Shown here: positions 48,361 through 63,851 of the stretch, in pieces | Numbering within the stretch: the first letter of the stretch is position 1 | Layout of the letters: each line of letters starts with the position of its first letter | Assembly: GCA_011050685.1 (NCBI GenBank) | Contig: DRFF01000049.1 | Span: 1 to 64,000, forward strand | Direction of reading: 5' to 3' | DNA length: 64,000 nt | From: Aurantimonas coralicida | GTDB taxonomy: Bacteria > Pseudomonadota > Alphaproteobacteria > Rhizobiales > Rhizobiaceae | Notes under the pieces: generated by a model | Seen by the model: the letters and a program-made list of their open reading frames with translations, nothing else | The model's database searches: none | What the model was told of the DNA's origin: nothing | Program-made: the position numbers and the translations under genes

Positions 48361-50745
48361 ATGCTTACGATCTTCACCAGCCGGAATGGTTCGAAATCGA
48401 CGGATATAGATTCGGTCGTACTGCGTCGCTTTCGCGGCGTTCAGATCAATAACATTCTCAAATTCACACCGATCATGATGCTCGGCAACGTGGTCAGTGC
48501 GGCCATCACATTTCCCGTGGCGTTCAATGCCGGCCTGGCGTGGATATTTCTGGTTTGGTGCGTACCGCTTCTCTATTTTGTAGCGACGGCTATCCGGTCG
48601 TCAGATCGCATTCGTGAGCGGGGCGGTCTGGACACCGCTTCGCAGCGCGCGTTGAATCGCGCTAGGGTATCGGCGTTGCTGCTGGGGTCTTGGTGGTCAC
48701 TGACCGCCATCCTCATCTATCCCGCGGCGAACAGCGATGGGAAGGCGATCGTCGCCACGATCATGGTGGGTTTGATCTCCGGTGGCGCCTTCTCGCTGTG
48801 CGCGCTCCGACCGGCGATGATGAATTACATGGTTCCGATTATCGCGGGTGGAGCCTTCGCCCTGTTTCTGTCTGGAAGGCCGCACGATTATCTGTTCGCG
48901 GTCTTGCTCTGTGCTTTCTCTTTTATCGTCGTTCAAAGCGGAATCGGTCGCGGGCGGTTGATCAAGGAGAATTTCGATGATCGGCAGAAGCTCGCCGAAC
49001 AGTCGGCCATCATCGAACTCTTGCTGCGCGAGTTCGAGGAAGGGACCAGCGACTGGCTGTGGGAAATCGACTCGTTCGGCAATTTGGGCCGCGGAACCGA
49101 GCGCTTTTTGCAGTTCTGCGGTCGGGGCACCGACGACATTCAGCCCGACGGTGACATGCAATTGGAATCCGTTCTCGCATCCGCTGGCCGGGCCACTGAT
49201 GGTCTCGCCGCGATTTTGGGCCATCTGACCGCAAAGACGCCATTTCGCGATCAGATCGTCGAAGTCGCCGCGCAGCCAAACTCGCGATGGATTTCGATTT
49301 CGGGCAAACCGATCTTCGACTTCAGCGGCGACTTTACCGGCTTTCGCGGCGTCGCTTCGGATATCACCGCCGTCCGCGAAGCCGAAACCCGCATCGTCTA
49401 TCTTGCCCATCACGACAGCCTAACGGGATTGGCCAATCGCGCGCATTTCGCGGAAGAAATCGAAGCAATTTTTCAGGTGAGCGGCAGCGCCGACCCTGTC
49501 TGCAGCGTGTTCTACCTGGATCTCGACAATTTCAAATCCGTCAATGATACGCGGGGACACACGATGGGCGACCGGCTGTTGAAGGCAGTCGGCGTCAGGT
49601 TGAAGGCCGTGGTTGGCCCCAACGATACGGTTTCGCGTATCGGCGGCGACGAATACGCCATTATAGCCCGGAGCGCCCAGGATGAACACGCTGCGGCCCA
49701 GTTGGCGACGGCGATCCTGGAGAGCTTCGCCAAGCCGTTCGATCTCGGATGCGAAACGGCAAGCGTCGGATCGTCTGTCGGCATCGCCTTTCTGGGCAAG
49801 GATGGCACCACCACCGAACATCTCCTCAAGAGCGCCGATCTCGCCCTTTATCACGCCAAGGAGGAAGGCAAGCGGACCTACCGATTCTTTACCCTCGCGA
49901 TGGCGCGCCAACGCCTCGAACGTCACCGACTGGAACAGGACCTTCGCGACGCGATCGGTAATGGGGAACTGTACATTGAGTACCAACCGATCGTCGACAA
50001 CGGCACGCGCAGGACAGCCGGCTTCGAGGCGCTGCTGCGATGGCAGCACCCCGAACGCGGGCGCATAGCCCCCGACCAGTTCATTCCGCTGGCGGAGGAA
50101 ATCGGCGCGATCACGGAGATCGGCGCGTGGGTCATCCACCAGGCATGCAGGACCGCGGCGTCCTGGCCCGACGATTTGTCAGTGGCGATCAATGTCTCGG
50201 CCCACCAGTTCAAGCATGGCGGCATCATCTCGGTGGTGCAGGAGGCTCTGGACCTAACCGGCCTGCGGCCTTCCCGTGTGGTATTGGAAATCACCGAAAG
50301 CGTTCTGATCGACGATCCGCAGCAGGTCGTCGAGATCCTGCATGAACTGCGAAACGTCGGCGTCAAGATCGCCCTCGACGATTTCGGCACGGGCTATTCC
50401 AGCCTGTCCTATCTTCGCCGCTTCCCGTTCGACAAGCTGAAGATCGACCGATCCTTCGTCAGCGCCATCAAGGACGACCAGGTGGCCCACGGTATTCTCG
50501 AGACAATCATGATCCTCGGCGGCGTCCTCAACCTTTGTGTGATCGCCGAGGGTGTCGAGGACGACGCTCAGCTCGACATCCTCAGCCGACTGAACTGCCA
50601 CCAGTTGCAGGGCTATTATTTCAGCCGGCCGATGGCGGAGGCCGATGTGGGCGGATATCTCCTCAACGAATTCCGGCGCTCGACCGTCGACGACCGCGCC
50701 GCCTTCCCTCTTTCGCTGGCCTCTCAGTCAGCGGCAGGCGACTGA
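48361..50745 (+). CDS. Membrane GGDEF/EAL protein with PAS domain (c-di-GMP turnover)
   Basis: 794-residue bifunctional signalling protein. Residues about 30-190 hold five or six hydrophobic segments forming an integral sensor. A PAS-like segment follows (about 215-345, ending RGVASDITAVREAE), then GGDEF (about 355-515) with RIGGDEYAI. The c-di-GMP inhibitory RxxD site is not kept (GPND at the position). The EAL domain (about 525-775) has EALLRW, NVSAHQF, LEITES, DDFGTGYSSL, KIDRSF and EGVED, all expected for an active phosphodiesterase. Whether cyclase or phosphodiesterase activity dominates cannot be told. Confidence 0.93.
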   Translation: MLTIFTSRNGSKSTDIDSVVLRRFRGVQINNILKFTPIMMLGNVVSAAITFPVAFNAGLAWIFLVWCVPLLYFVATAIRSSDRIRERGGLDTASQRALNRARVSALLLGSWWSLTAILIYPAANSDGKAIVATIMVGLISGGAFSLCALRPAMMNYMVPIIAGGAFALFLSGRPHDYLFAVLLCAFSFIVVQSGIGRGRLIKENFDDRQKLAEQSAIIELLLREFEEGTSDWLWEIDSFGNLGRGTERFLQFCGRGTDDIQPDGDMQLESVLASAGRATDGLAAILGHLTAKTPFRDQIVEVAAQPNSRWISISGKPIFDFSGDFTGFRGVASDITAVREAETRIVYLAHHDSLTGLANRAHFAEEIEAIFQVSGSADPVCSVFYLDLDNFKSVNDTRGHTMGDRLLKAVGVRLKAVVGPNDTVSRIGGDEYAIIARSAQDEHAAAQLATAILESFAKPFDLGCETASVGSSVGIAFLGKDGTTTEHLLKSADLALYHAKEEGKRTYRFFTLAMARQRLERHRLEQDLRDAIGNGELYIEYQPIVDNGTRRTAGFEALLRWQHPERGRIAPDQFIPLAEEIGAITEIGAWVIHQACRTAASWPDDLSVAINVSAHQFKHGGIISVVQEALDLTGLRPSRVVLEITESVLIDDPQQVVEILHELRNVGVKIALDDFGTGYSSLSYLRRFPFDKLKIDRSFVSAIKDDQVAHGILETIMILGGVLNLCVIAEGVEDDAQLDILSRLNCHQLQGYYFSRPMAEADVGGYLLNEFRRSTVDDRAAFPLSLASQSAAGD

Positions 50746-56313: not shown

Positions 56314-58196
56314 CTACTCGGCCGCTTCCTCTTCCCGCTGCCCGTACAGGAACCCGCCCGACTGCCGCGCCCAGAGACTGGCGTAAAGCCCACCGCGCTT
56401 GACCAGATCGGCGTGGCTGCCCTCCTCAACGATCCGGCCTTCGTCGAGCACGACCAGCCGGTCCATCGCCGCGATGGTTGACAGGCGGTGGGCGATGGCG
56501 ATGACGGTCTTGCCCGCCATCATCTTGGTCAAATTCTCCTGGATGGCCGCCTCGACCTCCGAATCCAGCGCCGAGGTCGCCTCGTCGAGGACCAGGATCG
56601 GCGCGTCCTTCAACAGCACGCGGGCAATCGCGATGCGCTGGCGCTGGCCGCCGGACAGCTTGATGCCGCGCTCGCCGACATGGGCGTCGTAGCCGGTGCG
56701 GCCCTTGGGGTCGCGCAGGGCCGGGATGAAGTCCTCGGCGTTGGCGCGTTCGGCCGCCGACAATATGTCGCCCTCGTCGGCGCCCGGCCGTCCATAGGCG
56801 ATGTTGTCGCGGATCGAGCGGTGCAGCAGCGAGGTATCCTGGGTGACGACCCCGATGGCACCGCGCAGCGAGGCCTGGGTGACGCCGGAAATATCCTGGC
56901 CGTCGATCAGGATGCGTCCGCCCTCGAGGTCGTAGAGGCGCAAGAGCAGATTGATCAACGTCGTCTTGCCGGCGCCGGAGCGGCCGACCAGCCCGATCTT
57001 CTCGCCCGGCAGGATGGTCAGCGACAGATCCTCGACCACGCCACCACCCTTGCCATAGTGGAAGCGGACATTCTCGTAGCGGATGGCACCACGCTCGGCC
57101 TGCAACGGCTGGGCATCCGGCTCGTCGATCAGCGTCGGCAATTGGCCGACGGTCGCGACGGCGTCCTGGATGGTGCCGTAATTGCGCACCAGCCCGTTGA
57201 TATTGAACATCATCCAGCCGGACATCTGGTTGAGCCTGAGCACCAGTCCGAGGGCGGTGGCGACGCCGCCGGTGGTAATGCCGCCGGCCTGCCAGCCGAG
57301 AATCGCCACCGTGCCGACGCCGGTCATCATGACACCGTTGAGCACGGCGACGGCGGTCCGCACCTCGGTCAGCGCCCGCGTCATCCGCCGGGTCGCGTCA
57401 ACCAGATGGGAGAAACCCGCCTTGACGAAAGAATCCTCGCTGCGCGCCGAATCGAACAGCTTGACCGCCAGGATGTTGGTGAAGCTGTCGACGACCCGGC
57501 CGGAGACGATCGATCGCGCGTCGGCGGACGCCCGGCCGTATTTGCGGATTTTCGGCAAAAGGTTGCGGACGATCCAGACATAGCCGAGCGCCCAGATGGC
57601 CAGCACCACCGCCATGCGCCAGTCGAGCGCGCCGAGGATCGTCACGGTCAAGACGATGAAGGTGACGAAGGACCAGAAGGTCTGCAGGATCGTGGTGATG
57701 AAATCGCCGGTCGCCGCCCCCACCTGCTGTACCTTCTGCGCCAGCCGGCCGGCGAAGTCGTTCTGGAAGAAGGTGTAGGGCTGCTCCATCAGCCGGCGAT
57801 AGCTCTGCCAGCGGATGCGGTTGTAGAAACTCGGCGAGATCACCTGCTCCTCGAGGATCGACGACACCAGCAGGACCGCCGCCCGGCCGACCAGCGTCAG
57901 CAAGGCGAGCCCGGCGATCAGCCAAAAATGCTCGGCGAACAGCGTCGCGGGCGAGGAGCGCTCCAGCGCGTTGATCAGCCAGCCGACGCCGGTATACATG
58001 ACCGCCTCGATGCCGCCGGTCAGACCACCGGTTGCCAGCAACCCGACGAGCGGCCATTTCGCCTGTTTGGCGAAGTGCCAGATGAAGCGGTTGGTCTCGT
58101 CCGGCAGCGGCGCAAGATGGCCGGTGCCCTCGCCGCCGGCCCCCTCGTCGTCGAACGGGTCGAGCAGCGTCTCGAAGCGCTGGAGAAACCGCTCCA

Positions 58197-58200
<4 letters not shown>
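56314..58200 (-). CDS. ABC transporter, fused membrane and ATPase domains (second subunit)
   Basis: Type IV exporter half-transporter of about 628 residues. Six hydrophobic segments lie within about 50-320; the nucleotide-binding domain has Walker A VGRSGAGKTTLI, Q loop VVTQDTSLLH, signature LSGGQRQRIAIAR, Walker B ILVLDEATSALD and H loop AIAHRLSTI. Two adjacent ATGs (58200, 58197) start the gene, the second sharing a base with the partner gene stop. All catalytic motifs look intact. Substrate unknown; probably a heterodimer with its neighbour. Confidence 0.93.
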
Positions 58201-60077
<1,877 letters not shown>

Positions 60078-60255
60078 CAAAACTTCCCATCGAATCGGAC
60101 GCCGGTTCAACGAATCAGGCAGGACCGAGCTTTTTCGGACGGCAACCGGCTGTGGCGAGGCGGTCCCTTCGATATAGGACGAACCGAGGCCGATTCACGG
60201 CTTCGGCGACGCCGGACGCGGCATGCCGCCCCCACGATGACAGGCAAGGCTACCG

Positions 60256-60942: not shown

Positions 60943-60957
60943 GTGACTTATTGTCAC
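60943..60957. repeat. Small palindrome upstream of the periplasmic-binding-protein gene
   Basis: GTGAC-TTATT-GTCAC, perfect 5-bp arms with a 5-base centre in an A+T-rich stretch, about 90 bp before the start of the PstS-like gene. It could be an operator or a small hairpin. Confidence 0.35.
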
Positions 60958-61044
60958 AGCAAAAGCAATCGACCAAATCGTAAACTTTCTCTGTGTAGAT
61001 TTTCCCACCATACCGTGAAGTCATGCGGACAAGGTAATTGATAA

Positions 61045-61875
61045 ATGAGACTGAATATATTGCCAATAGTTGCGATTTCAACTATTATTGCAGCCACGAC
61101 GCTAGCCGGCATGGCGCTGGCGCAAGCCGAGACTCTTCGGATTGGCGGGACGGGCGTGGCGCTTGGCGGGATGCGGATTCTCGGCGCGTCCTTCATGAAG
61201 GAACACCCCGACACTCAGATCGAGGTACTGCCCAGCTTGGGTAGCAGCGGTGGCATCAAGGCATTGCTTGCGGGCGCCGTGGATATTGCGGTCAGCTCCC
61301 GCGCTCTCAAGGGCGAGGAACGCGCGGCCGGCGCGACGAGCCGTCTTTATGCCCGCACACCCCTCGCCGTCGTGACATCACCCGATGTGCCCATCGCGGA
61401 TATCACCACCGGTGAACTCGCGGCCATTTATGCTGGCGAGACAACGCGCTGGCCGGACGGATCGATCATACGCCTTGTGCTGCGGCCGGCTTCGGAGACC
61501 GACACCCTATTGCTGCGCGAGCTTTCGCCCGGCATGGGCCGCGCCGTCGATGTCGCGTTCGGACGTCCTGGATTGGTCTCGGCCACGAACGATCAGGACA
61601 ATGCCGAAGCACTGGAGCGCTTGCCGGGCGCGATCGGCCTCGTGGCGATCGGCCAGATCGCGACGGAAGGCCGGCAGCTCAAGATCCTGTCGCTGGACGG
61701 CGTCATGCCGATGGCGGCCCTCTCCGCACGAGCCGACTATGGATTCGTCAAGGACTTGTACGTCGTCACCAAGCCTGGCGCGGGCAAGCCGGCGATGGCG
61801 TTCATCGCCTTCGTGAACTCAGCAGAAGGTCAAAACATCCTCGCCGATACGGGCCATAGCCCAATGGCCGAATAA
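61045..61875 (+). CDS. PstS-like periplasmic substrate-binding protein
   Basis: 276-residue secreted protein. A signal peptide (1-28, ending near MALAQAE) precedes a periplasmic-binding domain of PBP-like type 2 (PstS-like): LRIGGTGVALGGMRILGASFM, LPSLGSSGGIKALLAGAVDIAVSSRALK and YVVTKPGAGKPAMAFIAFVNSAEG. GSSGG resembles the phosphate-binding loop of PstS proteins but the ligand cannot be told. No ABC permease is adjacent; instead it is followed 14 bp later by a GGDEF/EAL gene, so it may be a sensor partner rather than a transporter part. Confidence 0.88.
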   Translation: MRLNILPIVAISTIIAATTLAGMALAQAETLRIGGTGVALGGMRILGASFMKEHPDTQIEVLPSLGSSGGIKALLAGAVDIAVSSRALKGEERAAGATSRLYARTPLAVVTSPDVPIADITTGELAAIYAGETTRWPDGSIIRLVLRPASETDTLLLRELSPGMGRAVDVAFGRPGLVSATNDQDNAEALERLPGAIGLVAIGQIATEGRQLKILSLDGVMPMAALSARADYGFVKDLYVVTKPGAGKPAMAFIAFVNSAEGQNILADTGHSPMAE

Positions 61876-61889
61876 CAGAAATCCGGGGG

Positions 61890-63851
61890 ATGAACGTGGT
61901 CAAACGATCGAAAGAGATTGATGATTCCGCATTGGCGTTCACGACGGCAGTGGCGGCGGCGGCAGCGATCATCGTCGCCCTGGTTTTGCCCGCTCTGCAT
62001 TTTTATTATGTTTATCAATACAATATCGGAAGTATTGAATCCAAGACTGAAATCAACGCGAAGCTGATTTCGCAATTGATCGGCAACAACCCGAGGATGT
62101 GGCAATTCGAAACGCTTCGCATCCAGGAGTTGCTCGTCGACACCGAGCACGATACCAATACAGAAGTTCAACGGGTCTTCGCCAAGAATGGCGACCTCGT
62201 CGCCGAACGCGCCACAGAGGCCCCCCTTCTCGGACCCATCATTCGCGATAGCCACCCGCTCTACGATGCCGGAGTCATCGTGGGGCGTGTGGAGTTCGAG
62301 CGCTCGCTGCGGCCGCAGTTGATCCAGAGCTTCATGGTGTTCTTGCTGTCCGGCCTTTTCGGCGCAGGCATCTTCATCGCCTTGCGCGCGGTACCATTGC
62401 GCGTGTTACGGAAAGTGATCGAACGGGCCTCCTTTCTGGCAAGCCACGACGCCCTCACCAACCTGCCCAATCGCGCCGTTTTTCAGGAGTGGATGGCCCA
62501 CACCATTGCCGATGTCGAGCGGGACGGAACGCCTGCCGCCGTGCTTTTTCTCGACCTCGATCACTTCAAGGAGGTCAACGATCTCTTGGGCCACGCAGCC
62601 GGGGACGAGTTGCTGAAGCAAGTCAGTGACCGAATGAGCGAGACCTTGCGCCAGAACGACGTGCTGTCGCGACTGGGCGGAGACGAATTCGCCATTATCC
62701 AGAAGCGGATCGCCCAACCCGGGGGAGCCGCCCAGCTGGCCCAGAGACTGATCGCCATCCTCTCCGAGCCATTCGACCTTTTCGGGCAGGAGGCGATGAT
62801 CGGGGCAAGCATCGGGATCACGATGTGCGAGCCCGGTGGACGAGGCGACCCAGCCCACCTGCTTCAGCAGGCCGATATGGCGCTTTATCGCGCCAAGAGC
62901 GGCGGGCGCGGAAACTACCAATTCTTCGAGGAGGACATGAATCGTCGCTTACTGGAGCGAAAGATGATGGAAATCGACCTGCGCCGGGCGTTGGCAAACG
63001 ACCAGTTGCAGTTGCACTTCCAGCCTCAGATCGATCTCGCGACAAGCGCGCTCATCGGCGTCGAGGCCCTGATCCGCTGGAATCATCCGGAGCAGGGATG
63101 GATTGCGCCAGATCGCTTCATTCCGCTTGCCGAAGAGACCGGGCTGATCTTGCCCATCGGCGACTGGGTCATTCATACGGCCTGCCGCCAGGCCCGGGCG
63201 TGGCCGTCCTTAAAAGTCGCGGTCAATGTCTCGCCGGTGCAGTTTCGCCGCGGCGATCTGGTGGCGGTGGTCCGGCATGCACTCGAAGAGAGCGGCATGG
63301 ATGCCGGGCGTTTGGAGTTGGAAATCACCGAGGGTGTCCTGATGCAAGACACCGAGGCCACCATCGCCATCCTGACCGCGCTGAAAGAATTGGGCGTAAA
63401 GATCGCCATGGACGATTTTGGAACAGGCTACTCCAGCTTGAGCTATCTCCGGCGTTTCCCCTTCGACAAGATCAAGATCGACCGGTCCTTCATCGCCGAT
63501 ATGGGCCATGACGATCACGCCGACAGTATCATCAGCGCTGTGATCAGTCTGGGCCGGGCCCTCGGCATGAAATCGAACGCCGAGGGCGTCGAAACGATCG
63601 AGCAAGCCAACCTGTTGAGAGCGCAGGGATGCGAGGAAGTTCAGGGATTTTACTTCGGGCGGCCGATGGCCGGCGAACACATCGACGCCCTCGTTCAGTC
63701 CTTTCAGAATGGCGATGCGGCAGCCGTGGCCACCGTCGCCATCGCGAGTACGGCGGACCGTGCAACCGTTTCAACACAAGACAATCCGCCGGAGATCGAC
63801 ACTGCGGAAGACGCTCCCATTTCCGCAAGGGCGGCGCGAGCGGGCGCTTAA
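61890..63851 (+). CDS. Membrane GGDEF/EAL protein (c-di-GMP turnover), partner of the PstS-like protein
   Basis: 653-residue protein with two membrane segments (about 17-42 and 145-170) enclosing a periplasmic domain of about 100 residues. GGDEF (about 180-345) has SRLGGDEFAII and an intact RxxD inhibitory site (RQND). EAL (about 355-600) has VEALIRW, NVSPVQF, LEITEG, DDFGTGYSSL, KIDRSF and EGVET. Both active sites look whole. A Thr/Ala/Asp-rich tail follows. The 14-bp gap behind the PstS-like gene suggests translation coupling or a common message, with periplasmic ligand binding controlling c-di-GMP levels. Confidence 0.94.
   Translation: MNVVKRSKEIDDSALAFTTAVAAAAAIIVALVLPALHFYYVYQYNIGSIESKTEINAKLISQLIGNNPRMWQFETLRIQELLVDTEHDTNTEVQRVFAKNGDLVAERATEAPLLGPIIRDSHPLYDAGVIVGRVEFERSLRPQLIQSFMVFLLSGLFGAGIFIALRAVPLRVLRKVIERASFLASHDALTNLPNRAVFQEWMAHTIADVERDGTPAAVLFLDLDHFKEVNDLLGHAAGDELLKQVSDRMSETLRQNDVLSRLGGDEFAIIQKRIAQPGGAAQLAQRLIAILSEPFDLFGQEAMIGASIGITMCEPGGRGDPAHLLQQADMALYRAKSGGRGNYQFFEEDMNRRLLERKMMEIDLRRALANDQLQLHFQPQIDLATSALIGVEALIRWNHPEQGWIAPDRFIPLAEETGLILPIGDWVIHTACRQARAWPSLKVAVNVSPVQFRRGDLVAVVRHALEESGMDAGRLELEITEGVLMQDTEATIAILTALKELGVKIAMDDFGTGYSSLSYLRRFPFDKIKIDRSFIADMGHDDHADSIISAVISLGRALGMKSNAEGVETIEQANLLRAQGCEEVQGFYFGRPMAGEHIDALVQSFQNGDAAAVATVAIASTADRATVSTQDNPPEIDTAEDAPISARAARAGA

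Follow-up and report, generated by a model that had tools for sequence, protein, structure and literature searches.

A PstS-fold binding protein encoded with a transmembrane GGDEF-EAL enzyme in Aurantimonas coralicida suggests a conserved sensing module

Introduction

What does a PstS-like periplasmic protein do beside an enzyme of cyclic di-GMP (c-di-GMP) metabolism when no transporter is encoded with it? This question is raised by a gene pair on contig DRFF01000049.1 of Aurantimonas coralicida, the first 64,000 nucleotides of which (forward strand) are called the window here and provide all window positions. A gene for a solute-binding protein of the PstS fold is followed, after a gap of 14 bp, by a gene for a transmembrane (TM) enzyme with GGDEF and EAL domains (Table 1). 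An initial annotation, made from the sequence alone, had remarked on this close spacing and on the lack of transporter genes and had proposed a ligand-responsive c-di-GMP module. The coordinates and the gap were verified; the open reading frames (ORFs) flanking the pair include neither a permease nor an ATPase of the kind that works with a binding protein, and the upstream neighbor encodes a SpoU/TrmL-type methylase.

We consider it probable that the pair specifies an extracytoplasmic receptor made of two proteins, in which the PstS-fold protein docks on the sensor domain of the enzyme and sets the c-di-GMP balance. A system of this kind is known from Vibrio cholerae, where norspermidine-bound NspS associates with MbaA and favors its cyclase activity, MbaA otherwise acting as a phosphodiesterase (PMC8967002, in the part of the article available). 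The window pair shows the features of that kind: conserved neighboring genes, a GGDEF/EAL protein with two TM segments, and intact cyclase and phosphodiesterase motifs. Docking and c-di-GMP control in the manner of NspS-MbaA are thus predicted for the pair, a prediction well supported by genomics.

Results

Conservation of the gene pair

Conservation as neighbors had been named beforehand as the test on which the proposed pairing would stand or fall. The binding protein was searched for at E ≤ 1e-10 in 397 genomes of the order, which gave 30 places in 29 genomes, and the neighborhoods of all 30 were inspected. Each of the 15 strongest places (E ≤ 9.2e-40, the window among them) adjoins a receptor with an N-terminal sensor related to that of the window. 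The receptor is encoded by the next gene downstream in 14 of these and divergently in one (L108); its output is GGDEF-EAL in 12 (two with PAS: L103 and L108) and a kinase in three (L105, L106, and L107, the last broken off at a contig end). The remaining 15 places comprise 12 with a second type of receptor, which has a different N-terminal part, and three with transporter genes (L120, L121, and L123; in L123, from genome G036, PstC-, PstA-, and PstB-like genes lie downstream). Receptors of the second type contained HAMP in all six cases scanned (L109, L113, L114, L115, L117, and L118). Eight of the 12 are GGDEF-EAL proteins and four are chemoreceptor-like, a weak label in that the methyl-accepting chemotaxis protein (MCP) signaling model scored under its cut-off in L114 and L118 and was absent in L115 and L117.

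When the same 397 genomes were searched with a profile of the sensor (A3), 17 were matched: the 15 found before, which had contributed their sensors to the profile and were hence recovered by construction, and only two more (G265 and G190). In both, the sensor-bearing GGDEF-EAL enzyme adjoins a binding protein of the sugar-type family Peripla_BP_4 (L175 6886-7809 and L174 6985-7836, respectively; the two proteins are 66% identical over 286 residues). In the order set, therefore, each of the 17 sensors detected adjoins a solute-binding protein, and such proteins of more than one fold seem to serve as partners of the sensor domain.

To these were added four Aurantimonas relatives that are not part of the order sample (G002, which is L031, as well as L032, G006, and G007), and the search was widened to 385 genomes of the class. 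There, the binding-protein alignment A1 at E ≤ 1e-25 gave 17 places in 16 genomes, with a strong set of 14 places in 13 genomes (E ≤ 1.2e-58). Eleven of these 14 adjoin a sensor-bearing receptor; the place in G659 is broken by a contig end, and a sensor kinase and a binding-protein fragment were found at the end of another contig. The class receptors other than that of the window are histidine kinases, nine according to Pfam and those of G733 and G659 according to pairwise HMMER matches. The sensor profile matched 18 of the 385 genomes at E ≤ 1e-5, and 12 of the 13 strong matches (E < 1e-20) lie in genomes that contain the binding protein. Among 359 genomes of the phylum, A1 matched 33 places in 32 genomes. 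Nineteen were strong (E ≤ 3.5e-44); at each of the 17 new places among these, the binding protein is followed by the sensor and a kinase. The 14 weaker places were mixed: three chemoreceptor-like (G818 and the already counted G117 and G322), one kinase without this sensor (L227), four linked to transporters (G1001, G934, G950, and G1071), three with neither receptor nor transporter within ∼2.4–3.3 kb (G860, G989, and G1091), and three more that yielded no locus.

Taking all searches together, a sensor-bearing receptor lies beside the binding protein at 47 of the 49 strong places (at one, with the contig break, by deduction), and its output is GGDEF-EAL, PAS-GGDEF-EAL, histidine kinase, or hybrid kinase. 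The proposed module thus stands as regards the conserved pairing, and falls as regards specificity for c-di-GMP, the receptors at the strong places of the class and phylum, beyond that of the window, being kinases. As a clue to the ligand, 10 flanking ORFs of the class loci revealed no common function (five were unmatched, and some are perhaps in the wrong frame).

Exchange of outputs in the binding-protein tree

How the receptor-linked proteins relate to those of transporters was addressed with a 75-row tree of the binding proteins (a quick IQ-TREE run with SH-aLRT support only and a midpoint root), in which many rows are related and L179, L170, L108, and L166 have long branches. A branch with a support of 99 parts 63 rows from 12 others. 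The 63 fall into clade A (47 rows, support 99), with 29 kinases, 16 GGDEF-EAL enzymes, and two receptorless members, and clade B (16 rows, two of which are one gene counted twice; support 91), with eight GGDEF-EAL enzymes, six chemoreceptor-like proteins, and two kinases. The transporter-linked rows included in the tree lie outside both clades. Nine of the 12 comparison rows are transporter-linked and three have no permease match nearby; in the wider family, transporter-linked PstS proteins were found at L033, L120, L121, L123, L124, L236, L237, L239, and L240. Counting from the starred branches alone, the whole tree requires a minimum of four changes for kinase and five for GGDEF-EAL. Several output switches are thus needed, which means that binding protein and receptor remain neighbors while the output changes.

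Within 15 of the 16 clade A rows with GGDEF-EAL (the near-duplicate L031 was omitted), binding-protein distances correlate with those of the sensor (r 0.85), GGDEF (0.77), and EAL (0.83), and the partial correlation with the sensor is 0.63 when GGDEF and EAL are held constant. The plain correlation was reached by none of 2,000 permutations, a procedure that ignores shared ancestry.

Some loci deserve mention in their own right. L115 and L118 (two genomes of one genus) carry an RND-type pump gene (ACR_tran) upstream of a clade B binding protein, whose partner contains HAMP and is chemoreceptor-like (the MCP signaling model matches weakly in L118 and not at all in L115). PstS-like proteins with ordinary phosphate-site loops and no permease match near were found at L235 2636-3457, L238 2398-3228, and L241 2638-3483, in three genomes of one genus. 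The clade A binding proteins L170 4358-5251 and L166 4100-4990 have no receptor found adjoining; downstream of the former lies an acetyl-CoA-synthetase-like gene, and a sensor search of that genome gave no match. In genome G542, a gene divergent from a sensor-bearing hybrid kinase (L228 4110-5123) gave a borderline NMT1-like match of 20.5 bits, at the cut-off, and perhaps encodes a binding protein of another fold type.

The receptor enzyme and its sensor

Two membrane segments and active-looking GGDEF (with an intact RxxD) and EAL motifs had been read from the sequence initially, and both hydropathy and the motif check agree. The enzyme matches the Pfam models of GGDEF (1.3e-45) and EAL (5.9e-75). 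It contains GGDEF at residues 263–267 and the I-site R254xxD257, and in the EAL domain E392-A-L, N446, E478, D508/D509, K529, E565, E568, and Q585, all of which are residues that we take to be important for function. In 13 relatives most of the checked residues do not vary; exceptions are the I-site and the first G of GGDEF, which some of these relatives lack. Given these intact motifs, the enzyme should make or break c-di-GMP.

For enzyme residues 1–183 no Pfam match was obtained at E ≤ 0.1, and hence none to a Cache or CHASE model. A structural model of residues 1–185 (mean predicted local distance difference test [pLDDT] score 83.1; predicted template modeling [pTM] score 0.67) shows two TM helices, the first of them long, with a short helix and a PAS-like sheet between them. 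Its best fold match was the extracytoplasmic domain of WalK (9a5d, an integrative model; Z 11.3, root mean square deviation [rmsd] 4.4 over 180 residues), and CdgS9, a LapD orthologue, was also matched (4u64; Z 10.0, rmsd 3.3 over 118 residues). P34, W71, and R77 are invariant across 19 aligned relatives, as are N67 and P68 among the 13 GGDEF-EAL rows of alignment A2; the stretch 67–77 is proposed as a putative docking or transmission site.

The binding protein and its altered ligand site

The best Pfam match of the binding protein is PF12849 (PBP_like_2; 1.6e-31). Against TIGR02136 (PstS family), it scored 84 bits, under the cut-off of 206.6, and thus does not reach the curated PstS score. 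A Sec signal peptide was recognized by eye at residues ∼1–26, with a helix at 6–22 in the AF2 model, which was built from the 19-row alignment A1 and has a mean pLDDT of 90.7. The nearest folds are PstS structures, 4q8r (Z 27.8, rmsd 3.0, 236 residues) and 4gd5 (Z 27.6, rmsd 3.2, 238 residues). The closely related protein in the A. marina record (L031) is 87% identical. A polyamine-binding type is not indicated by either the best Pfam match or the closest folds. AioX and AioS form a pair of binding protein and kinase; the arsenic-sensing proteins AioX/ArrX were not named among the matches listed for the binding protein by sequence and fold, an absence that is no exclusion. The genome has a pstSCAB-like set of its own on another contig (C174), where a PF12849 protein is followed by two permeases and an ATPase, and the window protein is not encoded with PstC, PstA, or PstB. 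A third PF12849 protein, recognized by its Pfam match, is encoded on contig C189 (L180 2645-4018).

The solved PstS relatives 1twy and 4n13 carry R-x-x-S-S-G-[TS] at the position of the anion-site loop that is altered in the window protein (Table 1), and the first loop is GGTG instead of GS(S/T)T. In a residue census of the 75-row alignment, with the 12 PstS rows outside clades A and B as comparison, position 151 was acidic in 38/47 clade A rows, 15/16 clade B rows, and none of the 12 others (53/63 over both clades, or 52/62 distinct rows). Position 153 was acidic in 44/47, 0/16, and 1/12, respectively, the sole comparison row being the transporter-linked PstS of the window genome itself, which is poorly aligned. 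All 45 receptor-linked clade A rows are acidic at 151 or 153, and the two receptorless ones (L166 and L170) at neither. Of the 63 rows in the two clades, all have R86 and 61 have R147, and Gly-Ser 66–67 is mostly retained. Because both arginines are nearly always kept, an anionic or zwitterionic ligand is possible. T36, R86, and the acidic pair at 151/153 are clearly constrained in the full-length family.

The designation as a PstS-type protein is therefore borne out for the fold and for PF12849, and not for phosphate sensing, the phosphate-site loop being altered. Phosphate, which had been suggested as a candidate ligand, is not supported, with acidic residues in place of the Ser/Thr of the phosphate site. 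The altered loop is no proof against phosphate, as an acidic residue could take the proton from hydrogen phosphate.

Start codon, leader, and neighboring genes

The enzyme may start at GTG 61896, where the ORFs of the relatives L031 and L032 begin. The leader upstream of the pair had been described as A+T-rich with a palindrome of 5-bp arms. The palindrome (GTGAC-TTATT-GTCAC, 60943-60957) is present, and the leader around it is conserved; the palindrome itself is not conserved, its arms being mismatched at two positions in A. marina and at one in Aurantimonas 3-561 when compared by eye, and it was rejected as an operator. No sigma-70-type match was found in the leader. Further upstream, two adjoining big ORFs on the minus strand (56314-60110) look by eye like the halves of an ABC-type exporter, and another GGDEF-EAL coding stretch, in a 796-aa open frame, lies at 49327-50682.

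Table 1. Positions of the gene pair and its features in the window.
Feature	Position	Strand	Remarks
PstS-fold solute-binding protein gene	61045..61875	+	276 aa
Altered anion-site loop of the binding protein, R147-P-A-S-E151-T-D153	61483..61503	+	Alignments and residue census
Transmembrane GGDEF-EAL enzyme gene	61890..63851	+	653 aa; alternative start GTG 61896
First TM stretch	61923..62018	+	Residues ∼12–43; hydropathy; uninterrupted helix 3–66 in the model
Periplasmic sensor, PAS/Cache-like	62019..62315	+	Residues ∼44–142 (∼100 residues)
Second TM stretch	62316..62408	+	Residues ∼143–173; hydropathy
GGDEF domain	62439..62912	+	GGDEF and RxxD I-site intact
EAL domain	62976..63665	+	Checked catalytic residues all present
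A+T-rich leader	60950..61044	+	Well conserved across three Aurantimonas genomes

Discussion

The conservation of the pair suggests a sensing module, and we infer that it works by docking, ligand dependence, and switching across the membrane. The ligand of the secreted PstS-fold protein would be a small molecule that need not be phosphate, and in one state, probably closed and loaded, the protein would dock on the PAS/Cache-like periplasmic domain of the enzyme. Docking would shift the two TM helices, and their movement would alter the balance between c-di-GMP synthesis by GGDEF and breakdown by EAL. The direction is a guess by analogy with NspS-MbaA: the enzyme may act as a phosphodiesterase at rest and turn to synthesis upon docking.

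Several observations weigh against this explanation. The pair is accessory, being present in four of eight genomes of the genus, and at two of the 49 strong places (L166 in G742 and L170 in G639) no receptor was found alongside. A strong class sensor, in G542, is without a PstS-like neighbor. Among the five weak class sensors, one (G516) has such a neighbor, a 132-aa fragment beside a kinase; at G719, G551, G593, and G690 a PstS-like neighbor was sought and none was found, a Phosphonate-bd protein in G551 being encoded two genes off, next to a different kinase. The sensor gave moderate fold matches; unrelated entries in the same list, ribosomal protein chains among them, score up to Z 8.6. Finally, the co-divergence of binding protein and sensor can be explained by shared inheritance alone, and the binding protein correlates with EAL as well (0.83).

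That the two genes are neighbors without a functional link, or that the binding protein serves a transporter encoded elsewhere, is very improbable. The two receptorless strong places and the transporter-linked PstS proteins of the wider family (nine named loci) would be in keeping with it, and against it stand the 47 places with a sensor-bearing receptor, which extend across different outputs and families, and the position of the transporter-linked tree rows outside both receptor-linked clades. A true phosphate sensor, the Pi-loaded form of which docks and couples phosphate supply to c-di-GMP, deserves somewhat more credit, yet is unlikely. Its fold is that of PstS, its best matches are phosphate-binding proteins, R86, R147, and Gly-Ser 66–67 persist as described above, and PstS-CtpL is a case of a receptor driven by a PstS (PMC4926252, in the portion accessible). 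However, acidic residues mostly occupy 151 in both receptor-linked clades and 153 in clade A and are nearly absent from the PstS proteins outside the two clades, the GGTG of the first loop departs from the PstS pattern, the score is far under the PstS cut-off, and the genome owns a separate pstSCAB-like set. It is because of the altered loop that phosphate sensing is treated as no more than a rival.

The binding protein might also be an adaptor that works without any ligand, as YfiR or HmsC would, and reports the redox, envelope, or surface state rather than a solute. YfiR is a precedent for a ligand-free adaptor. The altered phosphate contacts would fit such a role, as would a 132-aa binding protein without the mid-chain, encoded next to a sensor kinase (L230 3917-4315), which retains the signal-peptide-like start, the GGTG loop, and the C-terminal part. 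This short version is a single case from one genome of 90% completeness, and the constraint on T36, R86, and the acidic pair in the full-length family argues against this role; we regard the adaptor as doubtful, slightly more so than the phosphate sensor. HmsC-HmsD, described in the available sections of PMC8846402, offers another precedent for it.

The preferred reading, a two-protein receptor with a PstS-fold subunit, is best placed by comparison. With NspS-MbaA, which also occurs in Sinorhizobium meliloti (PMC9993111, as far as the text was available), it shares a periplasmic binding protein and an inner-membrane GGDEF-EAL enzyme, MbaA being bifunctional; NspS binds polyamines (both from the accessible part of PMC8967002), whereas the window protein has the PstS fold of PF12849 and the same sensor is also found on kinases. 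In Pseudomonas aeruginosa, Pi-loaded PstS binds CtpL in phosphate chemotaxis, and thus likewise acts on the periplasmic domain of a membrane receptor. The output of CtpL, chemotaxis, differs from that of the window enzyme, and P. aeruginosa PstS also serves a transporter (all from the portion of PMC4926252 at hand), whereas the window protein is encoded with its receptor and has an altered phosphate loop. LapD, which binds c-di-GMP inside and LapG outside (PMC3032545, in the part available), and its orthologue CdgS9 resemble the enzyme in periplasmic fold (4u64) and GGDEF-EAL layout. In contrast to LapD, the motifs of the window enzyme are intact and the LapD model NF045673 gave 136.5 bits against a cut-off of 1020; LapD-type inside-out signaling was rejected on these grounds. 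The pairing with a PstS-type protein had been called little described, and in the literature searched (openly licensed papers, with few subscription journals, judged by titles and the openings of abstracts) no case of this PstS-like clade with this sensor was found. The kind of system is already known; apparently undescribed, within the literature covered, are the PstS-like clade linked to receptors, the change in its site, and the sensor that its receptors have in common while their outputs are exchanged.

Tentatively, and with somewhat less than even confidence, the findings can be drawn together as follows. A PstS-fold clade in Pseudomonadota may have abandoned transport, acidic residues having remodeled the phosphate site to suit a different ligand. 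Together with a single, hitherto undescribed Cache-like domain on which solute-binding proteins dock, it would form a portable cassette that was repeatedly fitted to kinases and c-di-GMP enzymes, a sister clade having been joined to c-di-GMP enzymes with HAMP and to chemoreceptor-like proteins. What the sensor reads would be the docked protein and not the ligand, and this would account for the occurrence of related sensors next to sugar-type binding proteins.

For many c-di-GMP receptors the signal is still being sought, and here the soluble subunit, which can be purified by itself, serves receptors of several output types. Since one type of subunit serves them all, one ligand found would point to the signal of many kinases and c-di-GMP enzymes across the phylum. 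Moreover, genes for which an annotation as phosphate transporter binding proteins would be expected may, in these bacteria, encode neither phosphate-binding nor transport proteins, and an acidic residue at position 151 or 153 is offered as a test to separate receptor-linked from transport PstS-like proteins.

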